The notes below the pieces were generated by a model, which did no database searches, had not been told where the DNA came from, and saw only the letters and a list, made by a program, of their open reading frames with translations. A DNA stretch of 20,480 nt from the IMG/VR virus record IMGVR_UViG_3300025645_003552, positions 1 through 20,480 of that record; one strand, written 5' to 3'. Positions 5,170 to 20,220 of this stretch are shown piece by piece (the stretch's first letter is position 1; every line of letters begins with the position of its first letter). The translations under genes and the position numbers were made by a program. This DNA is from a virus.

Positions 5170-6975
5170 ATGGAATCTGCCGGAATCGCATACCTCAACT
5201 CGGAAGAAAAATATTTAAATATCAACATAGAAAGACACAAAGACAATAAAATATCAGAACAGGCAAAAAAATTATTAAAGGATTATTATCAATTAGAAGA
5301 CGAGGTATCACCACAGCAGGCATACGCAAGAGCTGCAGTTGCATATTGTTATGAAGATTATGAATTAGCACAAAGAATATATAACTATGTTAGTGATGGG
5401 TGGTTTATGTTTGCATCACCAGTATTATCTAATGCGCCACTTCCTAATGTAAAAACAAAAGCACTTCCCATTTCTTGTTTTTTAACTTATGTTCCTGATT
5501 CATTAGAGGGTCTTATTGACCATTCTGCTGAACTACGTTGGTTGTCAGTTAAAGGTGGTGGTGTCGGTGGACATTGGAGTGATGTTCGTGCGGTGTCAGA
5601 TAAGGCGCCAGGCCCAATGCCATTCATACATACAGTAGACGCTGATATGACGGCTTATCGTCAAGGTAAGACTCGTAAGGGGTCGTATGCTGCATACATG
5701 GATATATCACACCCCGACATTATTGAGTTCCTTAATATGCGTATTCCTACAGGGGATGTGAATAGAAAAAATTTAAATCTGCACCACTCAGTAAATATTA
5801 GTGATGCGTTTATGAGAGCAGTTGAAAGAGATGAGATGTGGGATTTGATTGATCCTAATGACCAGACAGTTCGTGATAGTAAAAAAGCTAGAAAAATCTG
5901 GGAGACAGTTTTAGAAACTCGTTATCGTACAGGCGAACCATATCTAAATTATATTGATACTGTTAATCGTGCGATGCCACAATCCATGAAAGACAAGGGA
6001 TTGAAAATACATGGGTCTAATTTGTGTAATGAAATACATTTGCCTACTTCTGAAGACCGCACAGCTGTATGTTGTTTGTCATCTGTCAACCTAGAGAAAT
6101 ATGACGAATGGAAAGACAGTTTTATGATTGCTGATCTTGTTCGGTTTTTAGATAATGTGCTTCAATTCTTTATTGATAATGCACCAACTGAAATAAGTCG
6201 TGCAAAGTATTCTGCTGAACAAGAGCGTTCTCTTGGTCTTGGTGCAATGGGTTGGCATTCTTATCTTCACAAACACCGCATTCCTTTTGAGTCGGACATT
6301 GCAAAAGAAAAAAATATTGAAATCTTTAGACATATAAAATCAGAAGCAATATTAGAAACAGAACAGTTAGCAACAGAACGTGGAGAGTGTCCAGACATGG
6401 AAGGAACAGGTAGGCGCAACTCACATCTACTTGCGATTGCTCCTAATGCAAACAGTTCGATTATTTGTGGAACATCACCATCTATCGAACCAAATAAAGC
6501 AAACGCATACACTCACAGAACAAGAGCTGGTTCTCATTTAGTCAAAGATAGATACCTTGAAGAAGAGTTAGAAAAGGTAGGCAGAAACGATACTAAAGCA
6601 TGGACTTCTATTATTACTAATGGTGGTTCAGTTCAACACTTAAAATATTTGTCAGATGAAGTAAAGAGTGTGTTTAAAACAGCAATTGAAATTGACCAGA
6701 ATGAAATCATATCTCAAGCTGCAAATCGGCAAGAGTTTTTGTGTCAGGGTCAATCTTTAAATGTATTTTTTGCGTCTGGTGCTAAACGTGCAGAACTTCA
6801 TGAGGTTCACTACAATGCTTGGAAACTTGGTTGTAAAGGAATGTATTATTTGAGAACAGAAACATCAAACAAAGCAGAAAACGTGTCTACACAAGTAGTT
6901 CGTGATGCACTAAAAGATTACGAAACTCAAGCAATGTCAATTAACCAAGAGGAGTGTGTCGCATGTCAGGGATAA
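5170..6975 (+). CDS. nrdA: Class I ribonucleotide reductase large subunit NrdA, short form without ATP-cone
   Basis: Catalyses reduction of ribonucleoside diphosphates to deoxyribonucleotides with NrdB. Catalytic residues are present: redox Cys103 (SCF) and Cys301 (AVCCLSS), the Asn284-x-Cys286-x-Glu288 triad in GSNLCNEI with thiyl-radical Cys286, and the radical-relay pair Tyr559-Tyr560. A C-terminal Cys596-x2-Cys599 pair would be regenerated by glutaredoxin. At 601 residues it is about 150 shorter than E. coli or T4 NrdA. The N-terminus begins close to the catalytic domain, so the ATP-cone that allows dATP shut-off is absent. GGAG lies 12 bases before the ATG, rather far. The last 13 bases overlap the glutaredoxin-NrdB gene. 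It serves phage DNA synthesis in the host cytoplasm. Confidence 0.95.
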   Translation: MESAGIAYLNSEEKYLNINIERHKDNKISEQAKKLLKDYYQLEDEVSPQQAYARAAVAYCYEDYELAQRIYNYVSDGWFMFASPVLSNAPLPNVKTKALPISCFLTYVPDSLEGLIDHSAELRWLSVKGGGVGGHWSDVRAVSDKAPGPMPFIHTVDADMTAYRQGKTRKGSYAAYMDISHPDIIEFLNMRIPTGDVNRKNLNLHHSVNISDAFMRAVERDEMWDLIDPNDQTVRDSKKARKIWETVLETRYRTGEPYLNYIDTVNRAMPQSMKDKGLKIHGSNLCNEIHLPTSEDRTAVCCLSSVNLEKYDEWKDSFMIADLVRFLDNVLQFFIDNAPTEISRAKYSAEQERSLGLGAMGWHSYLHKHRIPFESDIAKEKNIEIFRHIKSEAILETEQLATERGECPDMEGTGRRNSHLLAIAPNANSSIICGTSPSIEPNKANAYTHRTRAGSHLVKDRYLEEELEKVGRNDTKAWTSIITNGGSVQHLKYLSDEVKSVFKTAIEIDQNEIISQAANRQEFLCQGQSLNVFFASGAKRAELHEVHYNAWKLGCKGMYYLRTETSNKAENVSTQVVRDALKDYETQAMSINQEECVACQG

Positions 6976-8237
6976 GAATAGTAACAAAATCAGATTGTCC
7001 TTTTTGCTCAATGGCAAAGAATTGGCTCAAAGAACATTCCTTTGAATACACAGAAGATTTAATTAACAATGAAGAAGAACGTCTTGCGTTCTATCAAACA
7101 ATCAATGGTGCTACAGAAATTGTGGGTGAATTAAATACTCGCAGAATTAATTCTGTTCCTCAAATTTTTATTGATGATAAACGTATCGGTGGATATGATG
7201 AGTTGTTAAAGGTGGGTGATGACTTGTTAAGAAAACGCTGTGGGGGTGGACTGATGCAATTTAGTGAAACCTATAAACCATTTCATTATCCTTGGGCAGT
7301 AGAGATTACCACACGCCATGAGAAAGCACACTGGATAGAAGATGAACTTGATTTGTCTGATGATGTTTCAGATTGGAAGTCTGGTAAGGTTACAGATATT
7401 GAAAAGGAATATGTCACAAACATTCTACGTCTGTTTACACAGTCAGATGTTGCAGTCGGTCAGAACTATTTCGATCAGTTCATTCCTAAGTTTAAGAACA
7501 ATGAAATTCGTAATATGTTGGGTTCTTTTGCAGCTCGAGAAGGTATTCATCAACGTGCGTATGCATTGTTAAACGAAACACTAGGACTACCAGACAGCGA
7601 GTATCATGCGTTCTTAGAATACAAAGTGATGGTTGACAAGATTGAGTTTATGCAAGAGTCTGATAATAATAGTATGAAGGGTTTGGGTCTTGCGCTTGCA
7701 AAGTCGGTGTTCAACGAAGGCGTTGCGCTATTTGCATCATTCGTTATGTTGTTAAACTTCCAACGGTTCGGTAAGATGAAAGGTATGGGTAAAGTTGTTG
7801 AATGGTCTATTCGTGACGAGTCTATGCATGTTGAAGGAAATGCAAAGTTGTTTCGTCAATTCTGTATCGAACACCCCAAAGTAGTTGATGATGAATTTAA
7901 ACTAAGCATTTACGAGATGGCGCGAGTCGCAGTTAAGTTAGAAGATAAGTTTGTTGACCTTGCATATAAACTAGGAAATGTTGATGGTTTAGAAGCATCC
8001 GAAGTAAAATCATATATAAGGTATATAACAGATAGGCGACTATTGCAGTTAGGTCTAAAGACTAACTTTAAGGTAAAAGAAAATCCACTACCTTGGCTAG
8101 AATGGGTTTTAAATGGCGCCGACCACACTAACTTTTTTGAAAATCGTGTTACTGAATATGAGGTAGCAGGATTGTCTGGCAATTGGGATGATGCATATGA
8201 AAAAGAAAGTGAGGTGGCCGTATGCTCAATAAATTGA
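6963..8237 (+). CDS. nrdB: Glutaredoxin-NrdB fusion (ribonucleotide reductase small subunit)
   Basis: A 424-residue fusion. Residues 1-95 form a glutaredoxin: Cys12-Pro-Phe-Cys15, then NSVPQIFID with the cis-Pro and IGGYDEL. After a CGGG linker, residues 98-424 are the class I R2 subunit, with metal ligands Asp162, Glu193, His196, Glu252, Glu286 and His289, and radical Tyr200 four residues after His196 as in E. coli (H118/Y122). The chosen ATG at 6963 has AAGAGGAG ending 8 bases upstream, inside nrdA; an in-frame GTG at 6954 overlaps that site and is rejected. The fused glutaredoxin can plausibly reduce the C-terminal Cys pair of NrdA. An ATG at codon 98 could also give a stand-alone R2. T4 keeps the glutaredoxin (nrdC) as a separate gene. 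Confidence 0.93.
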   Translation: MSGIRIVTKSDCPFCSMAKNWLKEHSFEYTEDLINNEEERLAFYQTINGATEIVGELNTRRINSVPQIFIDDKRIGGYDELLKVGDDLLRKRCGGGLMQFSETYKPFHYPWAVEITTRHEKAHWIEDELDLSDDVSDWKSGKVTDIEKEYVTNILRLFTQSDVAVGQNYFDQFIPKFKNNEIRNMLGSFAAREGIHQRAYALLNETLGLPDSEYHAFLEYKVMVDKIEFMQESDNNSMKGLGLALAKSVFNEGVALFASFVMLLNFQRFGKMKGMGKVVEWSIRDESMHVEGNAKLFRQFCIEHPKVVDDEFKLSIYEMARVAVKLEDKFVDLAYKLGNVDGLEASEVKSYIRYITDRRLLQLGLKTNFKVKENPLPWLEWVLNGADHTNFFENRVTEYEVAGLSGNWDDAYEKESEVAVCSIN

Positions 8238-9449: not shown

Positions 9450-9749
9450 ATGAATGTGGATGTATTTACATTAATTACTAAGGTGGGAGCGCCAGTTGCT
9501 GGAGCTTTAGTTATGGGATTCTTCATTTTTTTAGTATTAAAACAAATACTAGAAGGTATCATCGATCAAATAAGAACTCTAACTATGTTTTGTAAAATGC
9601 TTGAAGATAGAGCAAGAGTGGGTTGTAATGAGCTTATAAAGATTGATTTGTTGGTTAGTTCTGCTTTAGGAGTTACCCCAGACATCAATAGAATTGCTCG
9701 TGCTGAAAACTTCAAAGAAGATGGAAAGTTGGATGTGAGGAGAGATTAA
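9450..9749 (+). CDS. One-TM protein at head of curli-like operon
   Basis: About 99 residues. The N-terminus FTLITKVGAPVAGALVMGFFIFLVLKQ... gives one membrane helix (about residues 10-33), followed by a mixed helical cytoplasmic or periplasmic part with two cysteines (MFCKMLEDRARVGC). The pattern ITxxGxPVxxAxxMGxFI is shared with the next gene, so the two are probably paralogues. GGAGG sits one base before ATG 9450 but 7 bases before an in-frame GTG at 9456, so the real start may be the GTG. Family unknown; holin-like or scaffold roles are possible. It is the first gene after the tandem late promoters. Confidence 0.68.
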   Translation: MNVDVFTLITKVGAPVAGALVMGFFIFLVLKQILEGIIDQIRTLTMFCKMLEDRARVGCNELIKIDLLVSSALGVTPDINRIARAENFKEDGKLDVRRD

Positions 9750-10078
9750 TGGGAGATGTAGCAAAACTAATTACCGAATTTGGGTTTCCAGTTGTTATGG
9801 CTGTCGGTATGGGTTATTTTATATACTACATATGGCAGTTTATTAGTAACAACATTCAACCAGAGTTAGACGCAATGCATCTTGCTCTTATAAAATGTAT
9901 AGACCAAAATCGTATGTTAGATAATGATATGATACGACTGCAACAAAAAGTAAATGTAGTTTTAGAATATAGAGAAAAAGATAAAATGCAAGAAGAAATA
10001 CAAGAACAGGCAGAAAAAATCAGCAATGAAAAAGTATTGGCTGGAAAAAAACAAAATGAAAATAAACAGAACACTTAA
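9749..10078 (+). CDS. One-TM coiled-coil protein, paralogue of previous gene
   Basis: 109 residues: an N-terminal membrane helix (about residues 10-32, FGFPVVMAVGMGYFIYYIW), then a helical region (QPELDAMHLALIKCIDQNRMLDNDMIRLQQKVNVVLEYRE split by charged residues) and a Lys/Gln/Glu-rich coiled tail. It matches a small family I associate with marine phages; function unknown. Its ATG shares one base with the preceding stop, and its 3' end overlaps the CsgF gene, so it is translated with the secretion genes. It might be an inner-membrane partner of the pore or a holin. Confidence 0.68.
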   Translation: MGDVAKLITEFGFPVVMAVGMGYFIYYIWQFISNNIQPELDAMHLALIKCIDQNRMLDNDMIRLQQKVNVVLEYREKDKMQEEIQEQAEKISNEKVLAGKKQNENKQNT

Positions 10079-10535
10079 TTTTAAAATTAAAATAGCTATT
10101 TTATTATCGTTGTTTTTGTGTATGCATGTTGCAGAATATTCTAAAGCAAGCGACTTGGTTCATCAGTGGAAGTCACCAGCTTTTAGTGGAAATGGTTACA
10201 GTTCACACGCACTAACAATTGAAAACCAAGAACATTCTAGAAAGAAAGCGATAAGAGAAAAGAAAGAAGCTGCAGAAAGAGAAGCGTTAAGAGATGCAGC
10301 TAATACAAATCTTTCGAAGTTTATGAAAAATGTTGAATCAAGAATTTATGCACAGCTGTCAAAACAACTCGTAGACAGTATGTTCGGAGAAAATTCTGGA
10401 CAAGCAGGTACAGTCACATTTGAAGGTACAACAATCAGTTACGTCAAAGATACAGAAAACGTAACCCTAACAATAGTGGATACAAATGCAAGCGAAACCG
10501 TTATTACAGTTCCTATTGGCGACTTTACTTTTTAG
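10056..10535 (+). CDS. csgF: Curli assembly factor CsgF homologue
   Basis: About 159 residues from ATG 10056. An in-frame ATG at 10026 would add ten polar residues before the signal peptide and lies deeper in the previous gene. The signal peptide (KIAILLSLFLCMHVAEYSKA) probably ends at KA|SD. The mature N-terminus SDLVHQWKSPAFSGNG resembles the CsgF segment F-x-NPxFGGNP that plugs into the CsgG barrel. A Lys/Glu/Ala helix follows, then MKNVESRIYAQLSKQLVD, matching the ESRLxSQL helix of CsgF, and a C-terminal beta part (GTTISYVKD, NVTLTIVDT). In bacteria CsgF sits on the outer face of the CsgG pore and couples secretion to nucleation. It directly precedes and overlaps csgG by 50 bases. Confidence 0.85.
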   Translation: MKINRTLNFKIKIAILLSLFLCMHVAEYSKASDLVHQWKSPAFSGNGYSSHALTIENQEHSRKKAIREKKEAAEREALRDAANTNLSKFMKNVESRIYAQLSKQLVDSMFGENSGQAGTVTFEGTTISYVKDTENVTLTIVDTNASETVITVPIGDFTF

Positions 10536-11268
10536 TCTAGGTGGTTGTGCTACGACAGAATTCTTAGAAGCACCAACATCTACATCAGTCCCGATGGTGA
10601 ACAAATTAGAAAATTTTCCACCTCCTGAGAGGAAGGTTGACATAGCCGTGTATAAATTTGTCGATCAAACGGGGCAAAGGAAACCTATTGACACTGGTGC
10701 TTCATTCAGTATGGCTGTAACACAAGGAGCAGCAACGTGGTTAGTACAAGCACTTAAATCTGCTGGAAAGGGAGAGTGGTTTACAGTTGTTGAAAGAATG
10801 CAATTAGACCAACTGTTAAAAGAACGGCAGATTATAAGAAATACAAGAACCACTTATGATGGTGAAAATGCAAAAAAAGTTAGGCCTTTAACTTTTGCTG
10901 GTGTTTTCGTAGCTGGTGGAATTGTTGGTTATGATTCTAATATAGAAACTGGAGGTGCTGGTGCAAGATATTTGGGAGTAGGCCCACAAGTTGAATACCG
11001 TAGAGATATGGTGTCGGTTGGTCTACGATTAATATCTGTTCAAACAGGTGAAGTTTTACTTGCAGTAAGCTCCGAAAAAACTATATTAAGTGCTAAAGTT
11101 GGCGTAAGTCTTTTCACATTTTTAGACATGGGTACTAAATTGTTAGAAGTTGAAGCTGGCGTTACTGAGAATGAGTCTACATCTTATGCAGTTCGTAAAG
11201 CAATCGAACATTGTGTAAGTCAGATAATTGAGGAAGGGATAGAAAAAGAACTATGGAAATTTAAATAA
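10486..11268 (+). CDS. csgG: Outer-membrane curli secretion pore CsgG homologue
   Basis: 260-residue lipoprotein. The lipobox LGGC has Cys21 as the lipid anchor. The body matches CsgG along its length: DIAVYKFVDQTGQRKP, AVTQGA, a LxERQIIRxTR-like stretch (LLKERQIIRNTR), GGIVGYDSN, GGAGARYLGVG, LRLISVQTGEVL, SEKTIL, and the C-terminal AIEHCVSQIIEEGIEKELW. CsgG forms a nonameric outer-membrane channel that exports unfolded curlin. The constriction loop that carries Tyr51, Asn55 and Phe56 in mature E. coli CsgG is here IDTGASF (residues 68-74), one residue longer, with only the Phe clearly kept. Length is close to E. coli CsgG. It starts 50 bases inside csgF. Confidence 0.95.
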   Translation: MQAKPLLQFLLATLLFSLGGCATTEFLEAPTSTSVPMVNKLENFPPPERKVDIAVYKFVDQTGQRKPIDTGASFSMAVTQGAATWLVQALKSAGKGEWFTVVERMQLDQLLKERQIIRNTRTTYDGENAKKVRPLTFAGVFVAGGIVGYDSNIETGGAGARYLGVGPQVEYRRDMVSVGLRLISVQTGEVLLAVSSEKTILSAKVGVSLFTFLDMGTKLLEVEAGVTENESTSYAVRKAIEHCVSQIIEEGIEKELWKFK

Positions 11269-11280
11269 GGAGACAACTAA

Positions 11281-11985
11281 ATGAAAACGATTATATCTAG
11301 CATACTTGTATTAATTGCTCTCGTTTATTTTGTTATGTGGGGAGTGGGAGAAAGTTATGCAAGCGATGTATACATTACACAGTCAGGCGCAAGTCTTACT
11401 GCAAATGTTAATCAAGACGGACAGACCAATAAGTTTGGTGATTCAACTACGGCAGTTACTTTAACAGGTGACAATCAGACTTTGGATATTGACCAAATTG
11501 GTAATACAAATACCATTGCAGCTTCTGTTGTGGGTGCGACACAAACATTCACACTTAAACAAGAAGGTAGCAGTAATACATCTACTGTATCGGTTGGTGC
11601 TAACTCTGCGTCAGCTGACAATAGTATTATTGAAACGATCACAGGTAGTTCAAACACAACTACTGTCAACGTAGGTAACTCAGCTGCATCTGATGATGCA
11701 GATATTGATTTGACTGCAACTGGTGATAGCAATACTATAACCATTAATGAAAACAGTACTGCATCACTAACTGGTAGTGATAAAAAGGTAACAAACATTA
11801 CTGCAATCGGTTCTAGCAATACTATTACATCAACACATACTGGTGCAGCTGACCAAGATACAACTCTACATCATACAGGAGCATCTAGCACATTTGCGAT
11901 TACTCAAGGTGGTGCGTATGACGGCACAACCTCTATGACAACAGTGGGGTCTGGTCATAATGTTACGGTTACTATGGACGATTAG
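11281..11985 (+). CDS. Secreted curlin-like beta-repeat protein 1
   Basis: 234 residues. A signal peptide (residues 1-27, ending SYA|SD) is followed by about eight imperfect repeats of 22-28 residues with a Q-x-G-x-x-N or G-S/D-x-N-T-x-T core: ITQSGASLT, VNQDGQTN, IDQIGNTNTI, LKQEGSSNT, ITGSSNTTTV, ATGDSNTITI, AIGSSNTIT, TVGSGHNVTV. This follows the curlin repeat (S-x5-Q-x-G-x-x-N-x-A-x-Q) loosely, with some Gln replaced by Thr. Very rich in Thr, Ser, Asn, Asp and Gly, and free of Cys in the mature part. Immediately downstream of csgG with an AAGGAG site. Probably the main fibre-forming substrate of the phage pore. Whether it forms amyloid is unknown. Confidence 0.8.
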   Translation: MKTIISSILVLIALVYFVMWGVGESYASDVYITQSGASLTANVNQDGQTNKFGDSTTAVTLTGDNQTLDIDQIGNTNTIAASVVGATQTFTLKQEGSSNTSTVSVGANSASADNSIIETITGSSNTTTVNVGNSAASDDADIDLTATGDSNTITINENSTASLTGSDKKVTNITAIGSSNTITSTHTGAADQDTTLHHTGASSTFAITQGGAYDGTTSMTTVGSGHNVTVTMDD

Positions 11986-13033
11986 TTTTACACTTTTGAT
12001 GCTGATGAGCAATATTGCTCTGTCAGACACTATTGGTAATGTAGTAAAACAAAAAGGAAATGCCTCAGTTGAGAGAGCAAAGAATAAACTTTCTTTGAAA
12101 AAAGACTTTGGTATTGAATTTAAAGATAATGTCCGTACAGGAAATGGTGACGTTGGCATAAAATTTGTAGATAATACAAATGTGGCAATAAGCCCGCACA
12201 GTTCATTGGTAATAGATGACTTTGTGTACGACCCAAATAATAAGGGTGGGTCTAAACTTGTACTGAATGTCGCATTGGGAACAGTTCGATATGCAAGTGG
12301 TAACATTGCAAAACTGAATGCTCAAAATGTTGATATTCGTACTCCAACAGCACGAATAGGTGTTCTTGGAACTGCGTTCAGTATGACCGTTGATGAAGTC
12401 GGAAAGTCTTTGATTATTCTGCTTCCCAATGCAGACGGAACAGTGGGTAAAATTTCAGTAGAGAGTGAAGCTGGTCAAGTTATGCTCAATCAAGCATTTC
12501 AATCTACACTGGTTACAAATGGTGAAAGTATGCCAACTAAACCAGTTGTACTTGATTTATCTTTAGACCAGATTAATAATCTATTAATAATCAAACCACC
12601 AAAAGAAAAACTTATAGAAATAGTTAGAAACATTAATAGTTCAAATAACTTGTTAGATGTAGATTTCTTAGAGTATAAAGTGTTAGATGAAAATGAACTT
12701 GATGAAGACGAATTAGAATTTACTGAATTGGATATTAATCCTTTAGATGTAGATTTGTTGATGAATGTATTAGACCAATTGATTGCACTGACCGCACAGT
12801 CAGAAATGATAGATGGTAGAACAAGTGGGTTCAACAAAGCAACTCAAGTCAATACGCTTCGTGATGGTTCACGCTTAGAAATAATTAGACATGTTGGAAG
12901 TAGTGAGGTACATTTAAGACTAAACGCTGATTGGGGTTATGTAATTAATTTGACGCAAGGTGGAATACCTGTGCCGGAGATAACGACAGATGACGAAACT
13001 ACTAATAATATTGTTATCTATCAGTCTGAGTAG
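11960..13033 (+). CDS. Periplasmic FecR-domain protein
   Basis: 357 residues, starting 26 bases inside curlin 1. A signal peptide (about residues 1-22, ending IALS|DT) is followed by a FecR domain (about residues 55-150): DNVRTGNGDVGIKFVDNTNVAISP, LNVALGTVRYASG, VDIRTPTARIGVLGTAFSM. This beta-sandwich is known from sigma-factor signalling and from periplasmic proteins next to CHASE2 cyclases. Here there is no cytoplasmic anti-sigma helix or membrane helix, so it is a soluble periplasmic form. A second part has an acidic, Leu/Asp/Glu-rich region (about 231-270) and a short C-terminal beta domain. I infer it acts as a periplasmic sensor or adaptor between curlin export and the downstream cyclase. 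Confidence 0.82.
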   Translation: MLRLLWTISFTLLMLMSNIALSDTIGNVVKQKGNASVERAKNKLSLKKDFGIEFKDNVRTGNGDVGIKFVDNTNVAISPHSSLVIDDFVYDPNNKGGSKLVLNVALGTVRYASGNIAKLNAQNVDIRTPTARIGVLGTAFSMTVDEVGKSLIILLPNADGTVGKISVESEAGQVMLNQAFQSTLVTNGESMPTKPVVLDLSLDQINNLLIIKPPKEKLIEIVRNINSSNNLLDVDFLEYKVLDENELDEDELEFTELDINPLDVDLLMNVLDQLIALTAQSEMIDGRTSGFNKATQVNTLRDGSRLEIIRHVGSSEVHLRLNADWGYVINLTQGGIPVPEITTDDETTNNIVIYQSE

Positions 13034-13784
13034 TATTGCATACGCTGACAACAGTGTATTCATAGAACAAATTACTACTAGTGACGATACAACGATAACT
13101 ATTAATCAAGACGGCAATGACAATGCTGTCAACTTGTCTATGGCTCATGATGATAATACACTTGATTTTCATCAAGAGGGAAACAATAATACAATTAGTT
13201 GGGTTTCTTATTGGGGTTCTGGTAAATCTTGGGGCGGCGATTTAGATGGTTCTGATAATACATTACGATTTAAACAGTATAATACAACTGGTTCAGATTC
13301 AAACAGAATAGGATTTCATATACCTAGCAATGGTAATACTGTTGATGTATGTCAAGGAGCTTCTTTTGCCAGCAGTACATCTACGTCTTGTTCTGGAACT
13401 AGTTCTCAAGAATATGGTGGACATACCACTAATCTAGATTTACATTCTGGTGGTAACACGATTAAAATAGGACAACAAACAGGTACAGGAAATGCAGATC
13501 ATTATGTCCAACTATATACATATGGCGGTGAAAATAACGATATTTTTGTAAAACAAAATGGTAACGGAAATAAAACATTAAATATGACTGTGCGAACTGA
13601 TGGTGGCGAACAATCTATAATTCAGAAAGATAGTGGAGCTCATACTGCGACAATAGATTTAACAGGAAGTTATCACACAGATTTAGATTTAAAACAACAG
13701 GGTAGCACTAATCAATCGTATAGTTTAACACAAAATTGTCAAACGTCTGGCGGTTGTGGAGTAACACTAACACAAGGAAATTAG
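12990..13784 (+). CDS. Secreted curlin-like beta-repeat protein 2 (with Cys pairs)
   Basis: 264 residues, beginning 44 bases inside the FecR gene. A signal peptide of 19 residues ends AYA|DN. The repeats are looser than in curlin 1 but keep INQDGNDNAV, FHQEGNNNTI, VKQNGNGNKT, LKQQGSTNQS and LTLTQG-like ends. Two cysteine pairs, Cys121/Cys134 and Cys250/Cys256, may form disulfides, which is unusual for curlins. It is larger and more varied than curlin 1, so it may be the nucleator or cap (CsgB-like) or a functional head. The assignment as minor subunit is inference from its position and divergence. It stops one base before the cyclase gene. Confidence 0.75.
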   Translation: MTKLLIILLSISLSSIAYADNSVFIEQITTSDDTTITINQDGNDNAVNLSMAHDDNTLDFHQEGNNNTISWVSYWGSGKSWGGDLDGSDNTLRFKQYNTTGSDSNRIGFHIPSNGNTVDVCQGASFASSTSTSCSGTSSQEYGGHTTNLDLHSGGNTIKIGQQTGTGNADHYVQLYTYGGENNDIFVKQNGNGNKTLNMTVRTDGGEQSIIQKDSGAHTATIDLTGSYHTDLDLKQQGSTNQSYSLTQNCQTSGGCGVTLTQGN

Positions 13785-13785
13785 T

Positions 13786-15642
13786 ATGAAAAAATGGATT
13801 ATCTCTATCTTGGTTATTATTATATTTTGTGGTATACGTTTTGTAGACCCTTGGTTTCTGGACATGGTGCGAATGAAAGCACTAGACCAACATCAAAGAA
13901 CACAACAAGAAGAAATCTCAGATAAAATTGTAACAGTAGAAATAGATAATGAATCTATAAGAGAACGTGGTCAATGGCCATGGCCTAGAAATGAATTAGC
14001 AAAAGATATTGAAGAGTTGTATCGTATGGGAGCTGCAATTGTTGTAGTGCCTATACTGTTTGCAGATGCAGATAGAATGGGTGGTGATCAACAATTTGAT
14101 GAAATGTTGAAGAAGACTCCCACCATCATAGGTCAAATACCAGCAAACGAAACTAAAGGCAATCCTATTTCCAGAGGAGTAGCAACAATAGGTACGCCAT
14201 GGCAACCTTGGGTGTATAACTATACAGGTGCGGTTGGGCCAATAGAACCTTTTGCAAAATCAGCAATAGGTGTTGGTATGATGTTAGTTGCACCAGAGGG
14301 TGATGGTGTAGTTCGTAGAATGCCTTTAGTAGTTCAGATAGACGGACAACTATACCCATCATTATCTATGGAGATATTAAGAGTAGCTGCTGGTGATCTC
14401 AGTTACCAGATGAAAACTGGTGAGGGTGGTATCGAAGCACTACGCATACCAAAATACAAAAAGGTACTGACTGATGCGAATGGTGCAGTCTGGATTGATT
14501 TCAAATGGAAAACAAAAACCTATGCACTAAACAAATTGTATATAAACGAATTATTTGAAGAATTAAATTTCAACGGAAAGATTGTTATACTTTCACCAAC
14601 TGCGTCTGGTATTGATAATCCAGTTGCAACACCAGTTGGAGTTATTCAAAGTCATGATTTGATAGCTGCATCTATAACAACTATGATGACAGGAAGAAAC
14701 ATCACAAGGCCATTCTGGTCTGACTTAGCAGAGCTGTCAGTTACCCTAGTAACATCATTGGTACTAACTGCCGTGGTGTTAACACTAAGTTGGTATTTCG
14801 GTGCAATACTTCTACCTTTGTTCCTTGCAGGGTCTTACTATGGTAGTTCATACCTATTTACCGAATATAGTTATTTAATAGATTGGTCATACCCTGTTCT
14901 GACTATGTTTGTGGTTTGGTCGGTTGCAGCTTTCCTACGGTTCATGGAAGAATTTAGATTGCGTCAACAGATTAAGAAACAGTTTGAGCATTACCTTGAC
15001 CCAAGACAGGTTGCGGTTTTACAGAAAAATCCAGAGGCATTAAAACTTGGTGGTGAACGTAGAGAGATGAGCTTTCTCTTTATGGACATTGTTGGGTTCA
15101 CTCCTATATCAGAACACTACAAAAACAATGATGACCCAGAGGGGTTAGTTGACTGTATCAATGATTACCTAGATCGTATGACTAAGATAGTCTTGAATAA
15201 TGGTGGAACGGTAGACAAGTATATGGGTGATTGTATTATGGCATTTTGGAACGCACCACTGGATTGTGAGAACCATGCAGAAATGGCAGTTCGTACCTCT
15301 ATGGAGTGTGCGGTGGAGACTGAGAACCTAAAGGCTGCATGGAAGGAGAAAGGACTACCAGAGATTAATATCGGTAGTGGAGTCAATACAGGAACGTGTA
15401 TTGTGGGTAATATGGGTAGTAGCACCAGATTTGACTATTCGGTTATCGGTGATGCAGTCAATCTGGCTGCAAGATTAGAGGCATCTACTCGTAACTATAA
15501 GACTCGCGGTGGCGGTATTGTCAATACGATTTACTCATCATATACCCAAGAACAGCTACCAGATGACCTAAAAGGTGTCGAATTGGACAAAATTAAGGTC
15601 AAAGGTAAGGATGAATTGATAACTATTTTCAAACCTCGTTAG
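13786..15642 (+). CDS. CHASE2-domain class III adenylate cyclase
   Basis: 618 residues. One N-terminal membrane helix (about 4-20), a periplasmic CHASE2 sensor (about 21-310; VTVEIDNESIRERGQWPWPR, FADADRMGGDQQFD), three further helices (about 318-390), then a cytoplasmic class III cyclase (about 425-615). Catalytic residues are complete: metal Asp434 (FMDIVGF) and Asp482 (KYMGD), base-selecting Lys478 with Ser552 where Asp or Thr is usual, and transition-state Asn559 and Arg563 (NLAARLE). Lys478 points to ATP, so the product is probably cAMP. In bacteria, CHASE2 cyclases sit beside FecR genes, as here. A membrane cyclase with an outside-facing sensor is unexpected in a lytic-type phage. It is the last gene of the late operon. 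Confidence 0.93.
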   Translation: MKKWIISILVIIIFCGIRFVDPWFLDMVRMKALDQHQRTQQEEISDKIVTVEIDNESIRERGQWPWPRNELAKDIEELYRMGAAIVVVPILFADADRMGGDQQFDEMLKKTPTIIGQIPANETKGNPISRGVATIGTPWQPWVYNYTGAVGPIEPFAKSAIGVGMMLVAPEGDGVVRRMPLVVQIDGQLYPSLSMEILRVAAGDLSYQMKTGEGGIEALRIPKYKKVLTDANGAVWIDFKWKTKTYALNKLYINELFEELNFNGKIVILSPTASGIDNPVATPVGVIQSHDLIAASITTMMTGRNITRPFWSDLAELSVTLVTSLVLTAVVLTLSWYFGAILLPLFLAGSYYGSSYLFTEYSYLIDWSYPVLTMFVVWSVAAFLRFMEEFRLRQQIKKQFEHYLDPRQVAVLQKNPEALKLGGERREMSFLFMDIVGFTPISEHYKNNDDPEGLVDCINDYLDRMTKIVLNNGGTVDKYMGDCIMAFWNAPLDCENHAEMAVRTSMECAVETENLKAAWKEKGLPEINIGSGVNTGTCIVGNMGSSTRFDYSVIGDAVNLAARLEASTRNYKTRGGGIVNTIYSSYTQEQLPDDLKGVELDKIKVKGKDELITIFKPR

Positions 15643-15672: not shown

Positions 15673-15701
15673 TTGACAAATCCTGTCCAATCCCTTATAA
15701 T
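15673..15701 (+). promoter_or_regulatory. Perfect sigma70 promoter (early type)
   Basis: TTGACA, 17-base spacer, TATAAT: both hexamers exact. It lies in the 90-base gap after the cyclase and drives the small gene at 15733. The 50 bases from 15671 resemble those from 15966 without gaps (38 of 50 by hand count), so the same promoter and leader were duplicated. The leader also holds an 8-codon ATG...TGA frame (15713-15736) that ends on the next ATG. Confidence 0.88.
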
Positions 15702-19701: not shown

Positions 19702-20220
19702 ATGAATGGAATTGAACAGCTAGTGGTCGGCACAATGTTTGGTGTTGTTGGTGCAGTTGCTCAACCTTTACCAGAAGATGTAAAGTCTAAATCGGTAGAA
19801 TGTCTTGCACTCAACATGTATCACGAAGCAAGGGGTCAGGGTACTGCTGGGGAACTTGCGGTGACTACTGTTGTAATGAACAGAGTTAATGACTCAAGGT
19901 TTCCTAATACTATATGTGGAGTGGTAAAACAAGGCCCGACTCGACCATCATGGAAAGACCCTAAAATTTCATTTCCCATTAAACATAAATGTCAATTTAG
20001 TTGGTATTGTGATGGTAAAAGTGATAAACCAAGAAATAAAAAAACTTATGCGAAAATGTTAGATTTTGCAGATGCAATATTAAGCAATAAGTTGTTGTAC
20101 TTAGATATTACTGATGGTGCTACGCACTATCACGCCGATTATGTCAATCCTTCTTGGGCAAAAACAAAAACAAAAACTGTAGAAATACAAGATCATATTT
20201 TTTATCGTTGGGAAAAATAA
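19702..20220 (+). CDS. SleB-like cell-wall hydrolase (probable endolysin)
   Basis: 172 residues of the Hydrolase_2 (SleB/CwlJ) family, which cleaves peptidoglycan as a lytic transglycosylase or muramidase-type enzyme. Key stretches are ALNMYHEARGQG with catalytic-type Glu42, AVTTVVMNRVNDSRFPNTICGVV, CQFSWYCDGK, and THYHADYVNPSWAKT. The N-terminus (VVGTMFGVVGAVAQ) is a weak signal or signal-anchor helix, so it may reach the periplasm by a signal-arrest-release route. It acts with the spanins at 1703-2462, although about 17 kb away, so the lysis genes are split. Confidence 0.85.
   Translation: MNGIEQLVVGTMFGVVGAVAQPLPEDVKSKSVECLALNMYHEARGQGTAGELAVTTVVMNRVNDSRFPNTICGVVKQGPTRPSWKDPKISFPIKHKCQFSWYCDGKSDKPRNKKTYAKMLDFADAILSNKLLYLDITDGATHYHADYVNPSWAKTKTKTVEIQDHIFYRWEK

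Follow-up and report, generated by a model that had tools for sequence, protein, structure and literature searches.

Why would a phage encode a complete nucleotide cyclase with its own sensor domain, what could the sensor report, and on what could the product act? We addressed these questions for a viral record 20,480 bases long, referred to in full length as the window. The cyclase gene is surrounded by T4-like genes. The window encodes, among others, the two subunits of ribonucleotide reductase, a tail-fibre protein, a relative of T4 RNase H and a DUF6433 protein, and the annotated phages closest to it at the protein level are HTVC008M (infecting SAR11) and Melnitz (infecting OM43). The viral record and this T4-like neighbourhood place the gene in a phage and not in a bacterial genome, as the original prediction had assumed. 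The reading frame runs exactly from 13786 to 15642 on the + strand, starts with ATG and is intact. The parts of the protein were as follows:

13786–15642, + strand: CHASE2 class III nucleotide cyclase, 618 aa (ORF, Pfam, residue alignment, AlphaFold2, Foldseek)
13816–14766, + strand: CHASE2 sensor, residues 11–327 (Pfam, E 4.9e-40)
14923–14982, + strand: TM3/linker junction, residues 380–399, left edge of the exchanged module (change points of protein pairs)
15064–15627, + strand: class III catalytic domain, residues 427–614, the exchanged module (Pfam Guanylate_cyc, E 2.1e-16)

The Pfam order is thus CHASE2 followed by the class III catalytic domain, the same as in CHASE2 class III cyclases of Alphaproteobacteria, among which those of S. 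meliloti have been named CyaD1/D2/K (PMC13001267). Residues D434, K478, D482, N559 and R563 aligned with solved class III cyclases, including CyaC (1wc1) and CyaB (3r5g); D434, K478, D482 and R563 were invariant, and every relative of the S or T type, as defined below by position 552, retained N559. The AlphaFold2 model (mean pLDDT 88.7) consisted of a single N-terminal helix, an alpha/beta periplasmic-type domain and, after three predicted membrane-type helices (312–333, 336–361 and 368–400), the class III catalytic domain. This layout predicts an N-terminal membrane helix, a periplasmic sensor, three membrane helices and a cytoplasmic enzyme. The best Foldseek matches of the model were the class III cyclases 6fht, 2w01, 1wc1 and 3r5g, and its catalytic part matched CyaC, CyaB and Cya2. 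The prediction of a complete CHASE2 class III cyclase in a phage, with all five catalytic positions intact and the periplasmic sensor kept, was therefore borne out by the intact frame, both Pfam domains and the residue alignment, as well as by the structure prediction that had been proposed as a check. Within the window's clade, dN/dS was 0.05–0.20 in the sensor and the catalytic domain alike, indicating that the cyclase gene is kept by selection. Judging from these sequence data, the enzyme is very probably real, and its product would be a cyclic nucleotide, most likely cAMP. Overall, the protein was 51% identical to the cyclase of HTVC008M and 38% identical to that of Melnitz, which belongs to a different catalytic type (D552/S559). 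It is without the C-terminal extension present in 76 of 81 sequences from the genome set.

The cyclase is the last gene of a curli (type VIII secretion, T8SS) cassette in the order csgF-csgG-curlin-FecR-curlin-CHASE2/cyclase. The remaining genes of the cassette and the two preceding it were as follows:

9450–9749, + strand: small one-helix membrane-type protein, phrog_18771 (PHROG match 8e-21)
9749–10078, + strand: second phrog_18771 paralogue (PHROG match 8.1e-26)
10026–10535, + strand: CsgF, curli outer-membrane accessory protein (Pfam PF10614, 1e-21)
10486–11268, + strand: CsgG, curli outer-membrane pore lipoprotein (Pfam PF03783, 8e-56)
11281–11985, + strand: curlin-repeat protein 1 (three QxGxxN repeats; Curlin_rpt 0.0073, weak, below the Pfam cut-off)
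11960–13033, + strand: secreted FecR-domain protein, ending in the curlin-like strand NNIVIYQ (Pfam FecR 1.5e-7; model)
12990–13784, + strand: curlin-repeat protein 2 (five QxGxxN repeats)

Components of type VIII secretion are present, with CsgG and CsgF recognized by Pfam and the curlin-repeat cargo recognized by QxGxxN (Pfam below the cut-off); none of 2000 shuffles reached the three repeats of curlin-repeat protein 1, and none of 2000 the five repeats of curlin-repeat protein 2. From its sequence, curlin-repeat protein 1 is a probable secreted fibre subunit. No match to the gate protein CsgE was obtained among the 10 proteins of the cassette and its neighbours scanned with Pfam, and CsgE is also missing from phage and alphaproteobacterial clusters according to the available text of PMC9599517. 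The overlapping or abutting arrangement of the cassette genes suggests a single transcript; the true start of csgF may be an inner ATG. Open reading frames of the phrog_18771 type also precede csgF in HTVC008M and similar relatives, homologous frames lying at this place in L002, L041 and L060. For the two window proteins of this type, Pfam gave no confident match and no holin family matched.

To what extent is the cyclase tied to this cassette? Three viral scans yielded at least 242 viral cyclase loci, including those of the window, HTVC008M and Melnitz, which are the closest relatives of three queries and not a random draw, with the best 80 of 460 relatives kept in one scan and at least one contig counted twice (L065 and L362). 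In all 116 loci with at least 6.5 kb upstream, csgG adjoined the cyclase, and in 114 of these both CsgG and FecR were encoded upstream on the same strand, as the full six-gene order (94/116) or a subset with csgG and FecR (20/116). The remaining two carried nothing on the cyclase strand and had csgG close by on the opposite strand. The cyclase of L222 and L224 has the opposite orientation to csgG, showing that division of the cassette into divergent units is possible. In the reverse direction, 35 CsgG loci had 5.5 kb or more of downstream sequence, and a cyclase was found in 34 of them; many of these contigs were the same as in the forward test, and the 39 loci from this search, seeded with the CsgG of the window, were close ones. 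One locus (L400) showed csgF-csgG-curlin-FecR-curlin and no cyclase within 7.8 kb. With csgG alongside wherever testable, a lone auxiliary gene was rejected.

The kind of locus is already known from the curli cassettes of pelagiphage HTVC008M (KC465899) and methylophage Melnitz (MZ577096), whose six genes are syntenic with those of the window. In our search for literature joining the phage cassette with CHASE2, cyclase or FecR, only PMC9599517, PMC7029224 and PMC9004378 treated the phage cassette. In the available text of the first, the T8SS clusters of pelagiphages, in myophage and podophage versions, have the same genes in the same order as the window, including FecR and adenylate cyclase (AC), with these two genes sometimes absent; the association is therefore strong in our sample and not absolute. 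In the same text, FecR is read as an iron regulator, CHASE2 is unnamed, FecR is not paired with CHASE2, and neither an exchange of catalytic domains nor a missing receptor is mentioned. The accessible parts of PMC7029224 and PMC9004378 describe csgF and csgG without the cyclase. What is new here is the pairing of FecR with CHASE2, the module exchange, the D/S module and the absent receptor.

We then considered what the FecR protein contributes. It comprises 357 aa with a FecR domain only, carrying neither an anti-sigma N-terminus nor a membrane anchor before the domain, and its model showed one short, signal-peptide-like N-terminal helix and a beta-rich periplasmic domain, of which the best Foldseek matches were periplasmic domains of anti-sigma regulators, including the PupR signalling domain. 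No ECF sigma factor or TonB receptor was detected among the window proteins scanned with Pfam, a subset of its ORFs. Iron regulation of the FecIR type was rejected because the anti-sigma part is absent. Across 112 loci, pairwise distances of FecR correlated with those of CHASE2 at 0.63 and with those of the membrane helices (TM) at 0.68, compared with 0.43 for both CsgG–CHASE2 and CsgF–CHASE2 and 0.08 for the catalytic domain and CHASE2. Among the sequences compared, the sensor thus co-varies with FecR, and the catalytic domain does not.

The C-terminal strand of FecR, NNIVIYQ, resembles the repeats NTLDFHQ, NTVDVCQ and others of curlin-repeat protein 2. A strict motif, N-x-[IVA]-x-[IV]-x-Q, occurred within the last 16 residues of 90 of 143 distinct viral FecR proteins (shuffles, mean 0.2) and was missed by 53; of 30 misses inspected, most seemed to end in a similar alternating strand with Gln, an impression rather than a count. 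The motif was found in none of 23 bacterial FecR proteins unlinked to T8SS, and in one of five T8SS-linked FecR loci outside the viral set, two of the five being copies of one locus. Pairing of FecR with CHASE2 extends to bacteria. After removal of four phage-like contigs binned into metagenome-assembled genomes (MAGs) from 80 bacterial CHASE2-cyclase loci, FecR lay less than 500 nt away in 12 of the remaining 76, mostly without curli, and somewhere in the available flanks in 24 of 76, as matched by a profile widened by iteration. According to the available texts, clusters of Campylobacterota pair FecR with CHASE2 cyclases (PMC9239204), and a Burkholderia operon pairs it with a CHASE2 kinase (PMC5192318). 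In these systems, as in the window, a secreted FecR-domain protein adjoins a CHASE2 protein; in contrast to the window, the texts name no curli genes, and the output may be a kinase. The CHASE2 cyclases of S. meliloti respond to a protein via an outer-membrane barrel (PMC13001267).

The catalytic domain followed a different course. At positions D434-K478-D482-552-559-R563, the 210 distinct viral proteins read DKDSNR in 133 cases, DKDDSR in 73 (a number enriched by the use of Melnitz as a query) and DKDTNR in three, one being truncated. Ser552 had been thought a small variation of the base-selecting pair; this did not hold, as Ser is the usual residue in bacterial relatives, occupying position 552 in 69 of 81 distinct genome-collection sequences (at least four of them phage-like), with Thr in the other 12. 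As a common bacterial state, Ser552 was likewise rejected as a phage peculiarity. Position 559 is Asn in 81 of 81 genome-set sequences and in all 18 readable of 20 fetched Pseudomonadota loci, and is Ser in the D/S type. In class III cyclases, Asn and Arg stabilize the transition state. On the sequences compared, D552/S559 is a phage-only catalytic type in which the transition-state Asn is replaced by Ser. No bacterial source of this domain emerged, the matches listed from 299 Pseudomonadota genomes being at most 42% identical. The metal-binding Asp, Lys and Arg residues were invariant in every complete viral sequence, including 73 of 73 of the D/S type, and both module types were under purifying selection. 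The D/S module is not decaying; it may have altered chemistry, with different or weak activity in some members.

Comparison of the two domains shows that phages have exchanged the catalytic domain as one block, whose left edge is the junction between membrane and catalytic parts, and that the window's protein is such a mosaic. The domains differed by at least 40 points in 2287 of 21,736 pairs, involving 173 of 209 proteins (the pairs are not independent), and the change point fell in bins 380–399 for 2286 of these 2287. In the pair L227/L260, a second edge was located near residue 590, after VKGK. Two pairs illustrate the discordance: L018 and L034 share 90% of the sensor and 35% of the catalytic domain, while L227 and L260 share 35% and 96%, respectively. 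The window itself is 67% identical to L034 in the sensor and 37% in the catalytic domain, and 41% and 78% identical, respectively, to L050; its genes flanking the cyclase on either side resemble those of L041, whereas its catalytic domain does not. The 73 DKDDSR proteins grouped as a single, long-stemmed clade in the catalytic tree and were scattered in the CHASE2 tree. For 112 loci, at least seven type changes were needed on the CHASE2 tree (six with weak nodes collapsed; shuffles, mean 34) and two on the catalytic tree. Distances between segments correlated at 0.55–0.64 within CHASE2 and 0.63–0.83 within the catalytic domain, compared with 0.05–0.16 between sensor and catalytic domain; the two halves of single genes correlated at 0.66 for CsgG, 0.77 for FecR and 0.39 for CsgF. 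With 40 proteins, the catalytic alignment rejected the sensor tree and vice versa (log-likelihood differences 2156 and 2268, the program warning of low AU resampling). Because each alignment refuses the tree of the other, alignment noise or a merely unequal rate was rejected as the cause of the discordance, and chimeras of single assemblies are unlikely because both kinds recur in several samples and in cultured phages. In a Rickettsiales-labelled MAG (L088, 5787–7718), the catalytic domain of a cyclase was 65% identical to that of phage L302, while its sensor was at most 34% identical to anything compared, and its neighbours encode TolC-type and cadherin-domain proteins; here, domains may have been swapped between a phage and a bacterium.

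What could the product act upon? According to one explanation, which the original prediction had advanced, the phage raises cAMP and a CRP-family regulator of the host changes transcription. The catalytic residues fit an adenylate cyclase, and the CHASE2 cyclases of S. meliloti do drive a CRP-family regulator (PMC13001267). The SAR11-infecting phage HTVC008M also has the cyclase gene. Two genomes carried the SAR11-441R site and four other SAR11 probe sites, which we take to identify SAR11, and 117 genomes of their order, many of them possibly incomplete, were searched. Neither a class III cyclase (0/117), nor a class I cyclase (0/117), nor a CRP-type HTH over the cut-off (0/117; weak matches below it in 16) was detected. 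A cNMP-binding domain was present in seven of the 117, within larger proteins (the open frame spanning 870 aa in six genomes and 372 aa in the seventh). The one examined (L433) is a large multi-domain protein unlike CRP, and proteins of this type were the sole candidate host cNMP binders seen. Records of 11 related phages, including two complete genomes, contained no cNMP-binding domain (PF00027), a twelfth record having been left out as a bacterial MAG. With neither cyclases nor a CRP-type regulator over the cut-off in the order and no cNMP-binding domain in the phages, CRP reprogramming is unlikely for SAR11 phages, and the proposed control of CRP genes is not supported for this host group. 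CRP control in another host is possible, and crp-fnr genes have been reported in special SAR11 lineages in the available text of PMC12816887. As a general account of the locus, we regard host reprogramming through CRP as unlikely.

The reading that we favour, and hold to be probable, is that FecR and CHASE2 watch curli assembly in the periplasm and drive a cyclase that acts through a non-CRP target or in another host. CsgG and CsgF would form the outer-membrane pore for the two curlin-repeat proteins. The secreted FecR-domain protein, with a C-terminus like one curlin strand, would meet the CHASE2 domain in the periplasm and report whether the pore or its curlin cargo is present, exported or assembled. 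In response, CHASE2 would alter the activity of the cytoplasmic catalytic domain, whose product would be a cyclic nucleotide and most probably cAMP. The sequences themselves show the membership in the cassette, the intact catalytic residues, the purifying selection, the FecR–CHASE2 co-variation and the catalytic-domain exchange, and from them we infer the periplasmic contact of FecR with CHASE2, its input and the product. As no standard receptor appeared in the SAR11 genomes and phage records searched, the output would pass through a non-CRP target or another host. A bolder form of this reading, to which we give somewhat less than an even chance, describes a device of two parts, in which a sensor tuned by FecR remains in the curli cassette and the catalytic output, including the phage-only module without Asn, is swapped among phages with its left edge at the membrane junction, and hosts without cyclase or CRP imply an unknown receptor, an unusual product or extracellular action. 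If true, a widespread group of ocean phages builds both a secretion system in the outer membrane and a sensor-cyclase watching that same system, and their signal output evolves through replacement of the entire catalytic domain. It would also raise the question of what cyclic nucleotides do in SAR11, an abundant ocean group without the usual machinery, and phage FecR, read so far as an iron regulator, would become one component of a sensor in the periplasm.

Other functions of the cassette and its cyclase can be weighed against the same data. If the cassette were a gated pore, the cyclase could couple the state of the pore to lysis timing. A lysis role of the curli pore has been proposed in the available text of PMC9004378, the window encodes a cell-wall hydrolase downstream (19702–20220), and csgF is immediately preceded by the genes of the two small membrane proteins. 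However, other genes and a distance of 4 kb separate the hydrolase from the cassette, the small proteins resemble no holin family, and the curlin repeats, needless for a mere pore, have been kept, all of which makes this explanation doubtful. The cyclase might instead exclude other phages in the manner of Pycsar, its product triggering an effector upon envelope disturbance by a superinfecting phage, with modules varying because competing phages acquire sponges or degraders. Such diversifying selection would agree with the repeated exchange of catalytic modules, and PADLOC models of Pycsar cyclases matched (best 5.6e-25), but PycC models represent class III cyclases generally, so that the match carries little weight, and the effector half of a Pycsar system is missing, with a cNMP-binding effector domain in 0 of the 11 phage records; we consider exclusion distinctly improbable. 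That the protein is now chiefly a structural or regulatory membrane protein, its product immaterial, would accommodate the loss of Asn559 in the D552/S559 type and the lack of a known receptor, but is very improbable given that the catalytic domain is constrained at least as much as the sensor in most pairs compared and that the metal-binding Asp, Lys and Arg persist even in the D/S type.

We also looked for bacterial counterparts. Within a single class and family, 21 genomes encoded CsgF, from which 20 loci were taken, one genome (G183) being excluded as under the cut-off. The order csgF-csgG-curlin-curlin-FecR-cyclase occurred in two of the 20, namely, G001 (the Caulobacteraceae MAG of L087) and G421; the other 18 carried no FecR or cyclase, three of them ending at or just after csgG. 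L087 sits among bacterial genes. The available text of PMC9599517 states that AC and FecR are outside bacterial T8SS operons, to which these two Caulobacteraceae-family genomes are exceptions. In the sensor tree, the bacterial operons L087 and L201 adjoined the phage sequences L285 and L286. The phylogeny that had been suggested for finding a bacterial donor thus revealed no simple one: either direction of transfer fits this nesting, a simple donor was rejected, and the bacterial full-order operons could be phage-derived. Three phage-like contigs with the cyclase or the whole cassette (L084, L085 and L090) were binned in Bacteroidota-labelled MAGs.

Two further features of the window were noted. 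Just 3′ of the cyclase lies the following element, found by consensus match only:

15673–15701, + strand: perfect sigma-70-type consensus (12/12)

The total count of sigma-70-type sites in the window was near the shuffled mean; from its sequence and place, this one is likely to mark the start of the next transcription unit. Upstream of the cassette, at 6954–8237, a glutaredoxin domain and the ribonucleotide reductase small subunit, both recognized by Pfam, are fused in a single ORF.
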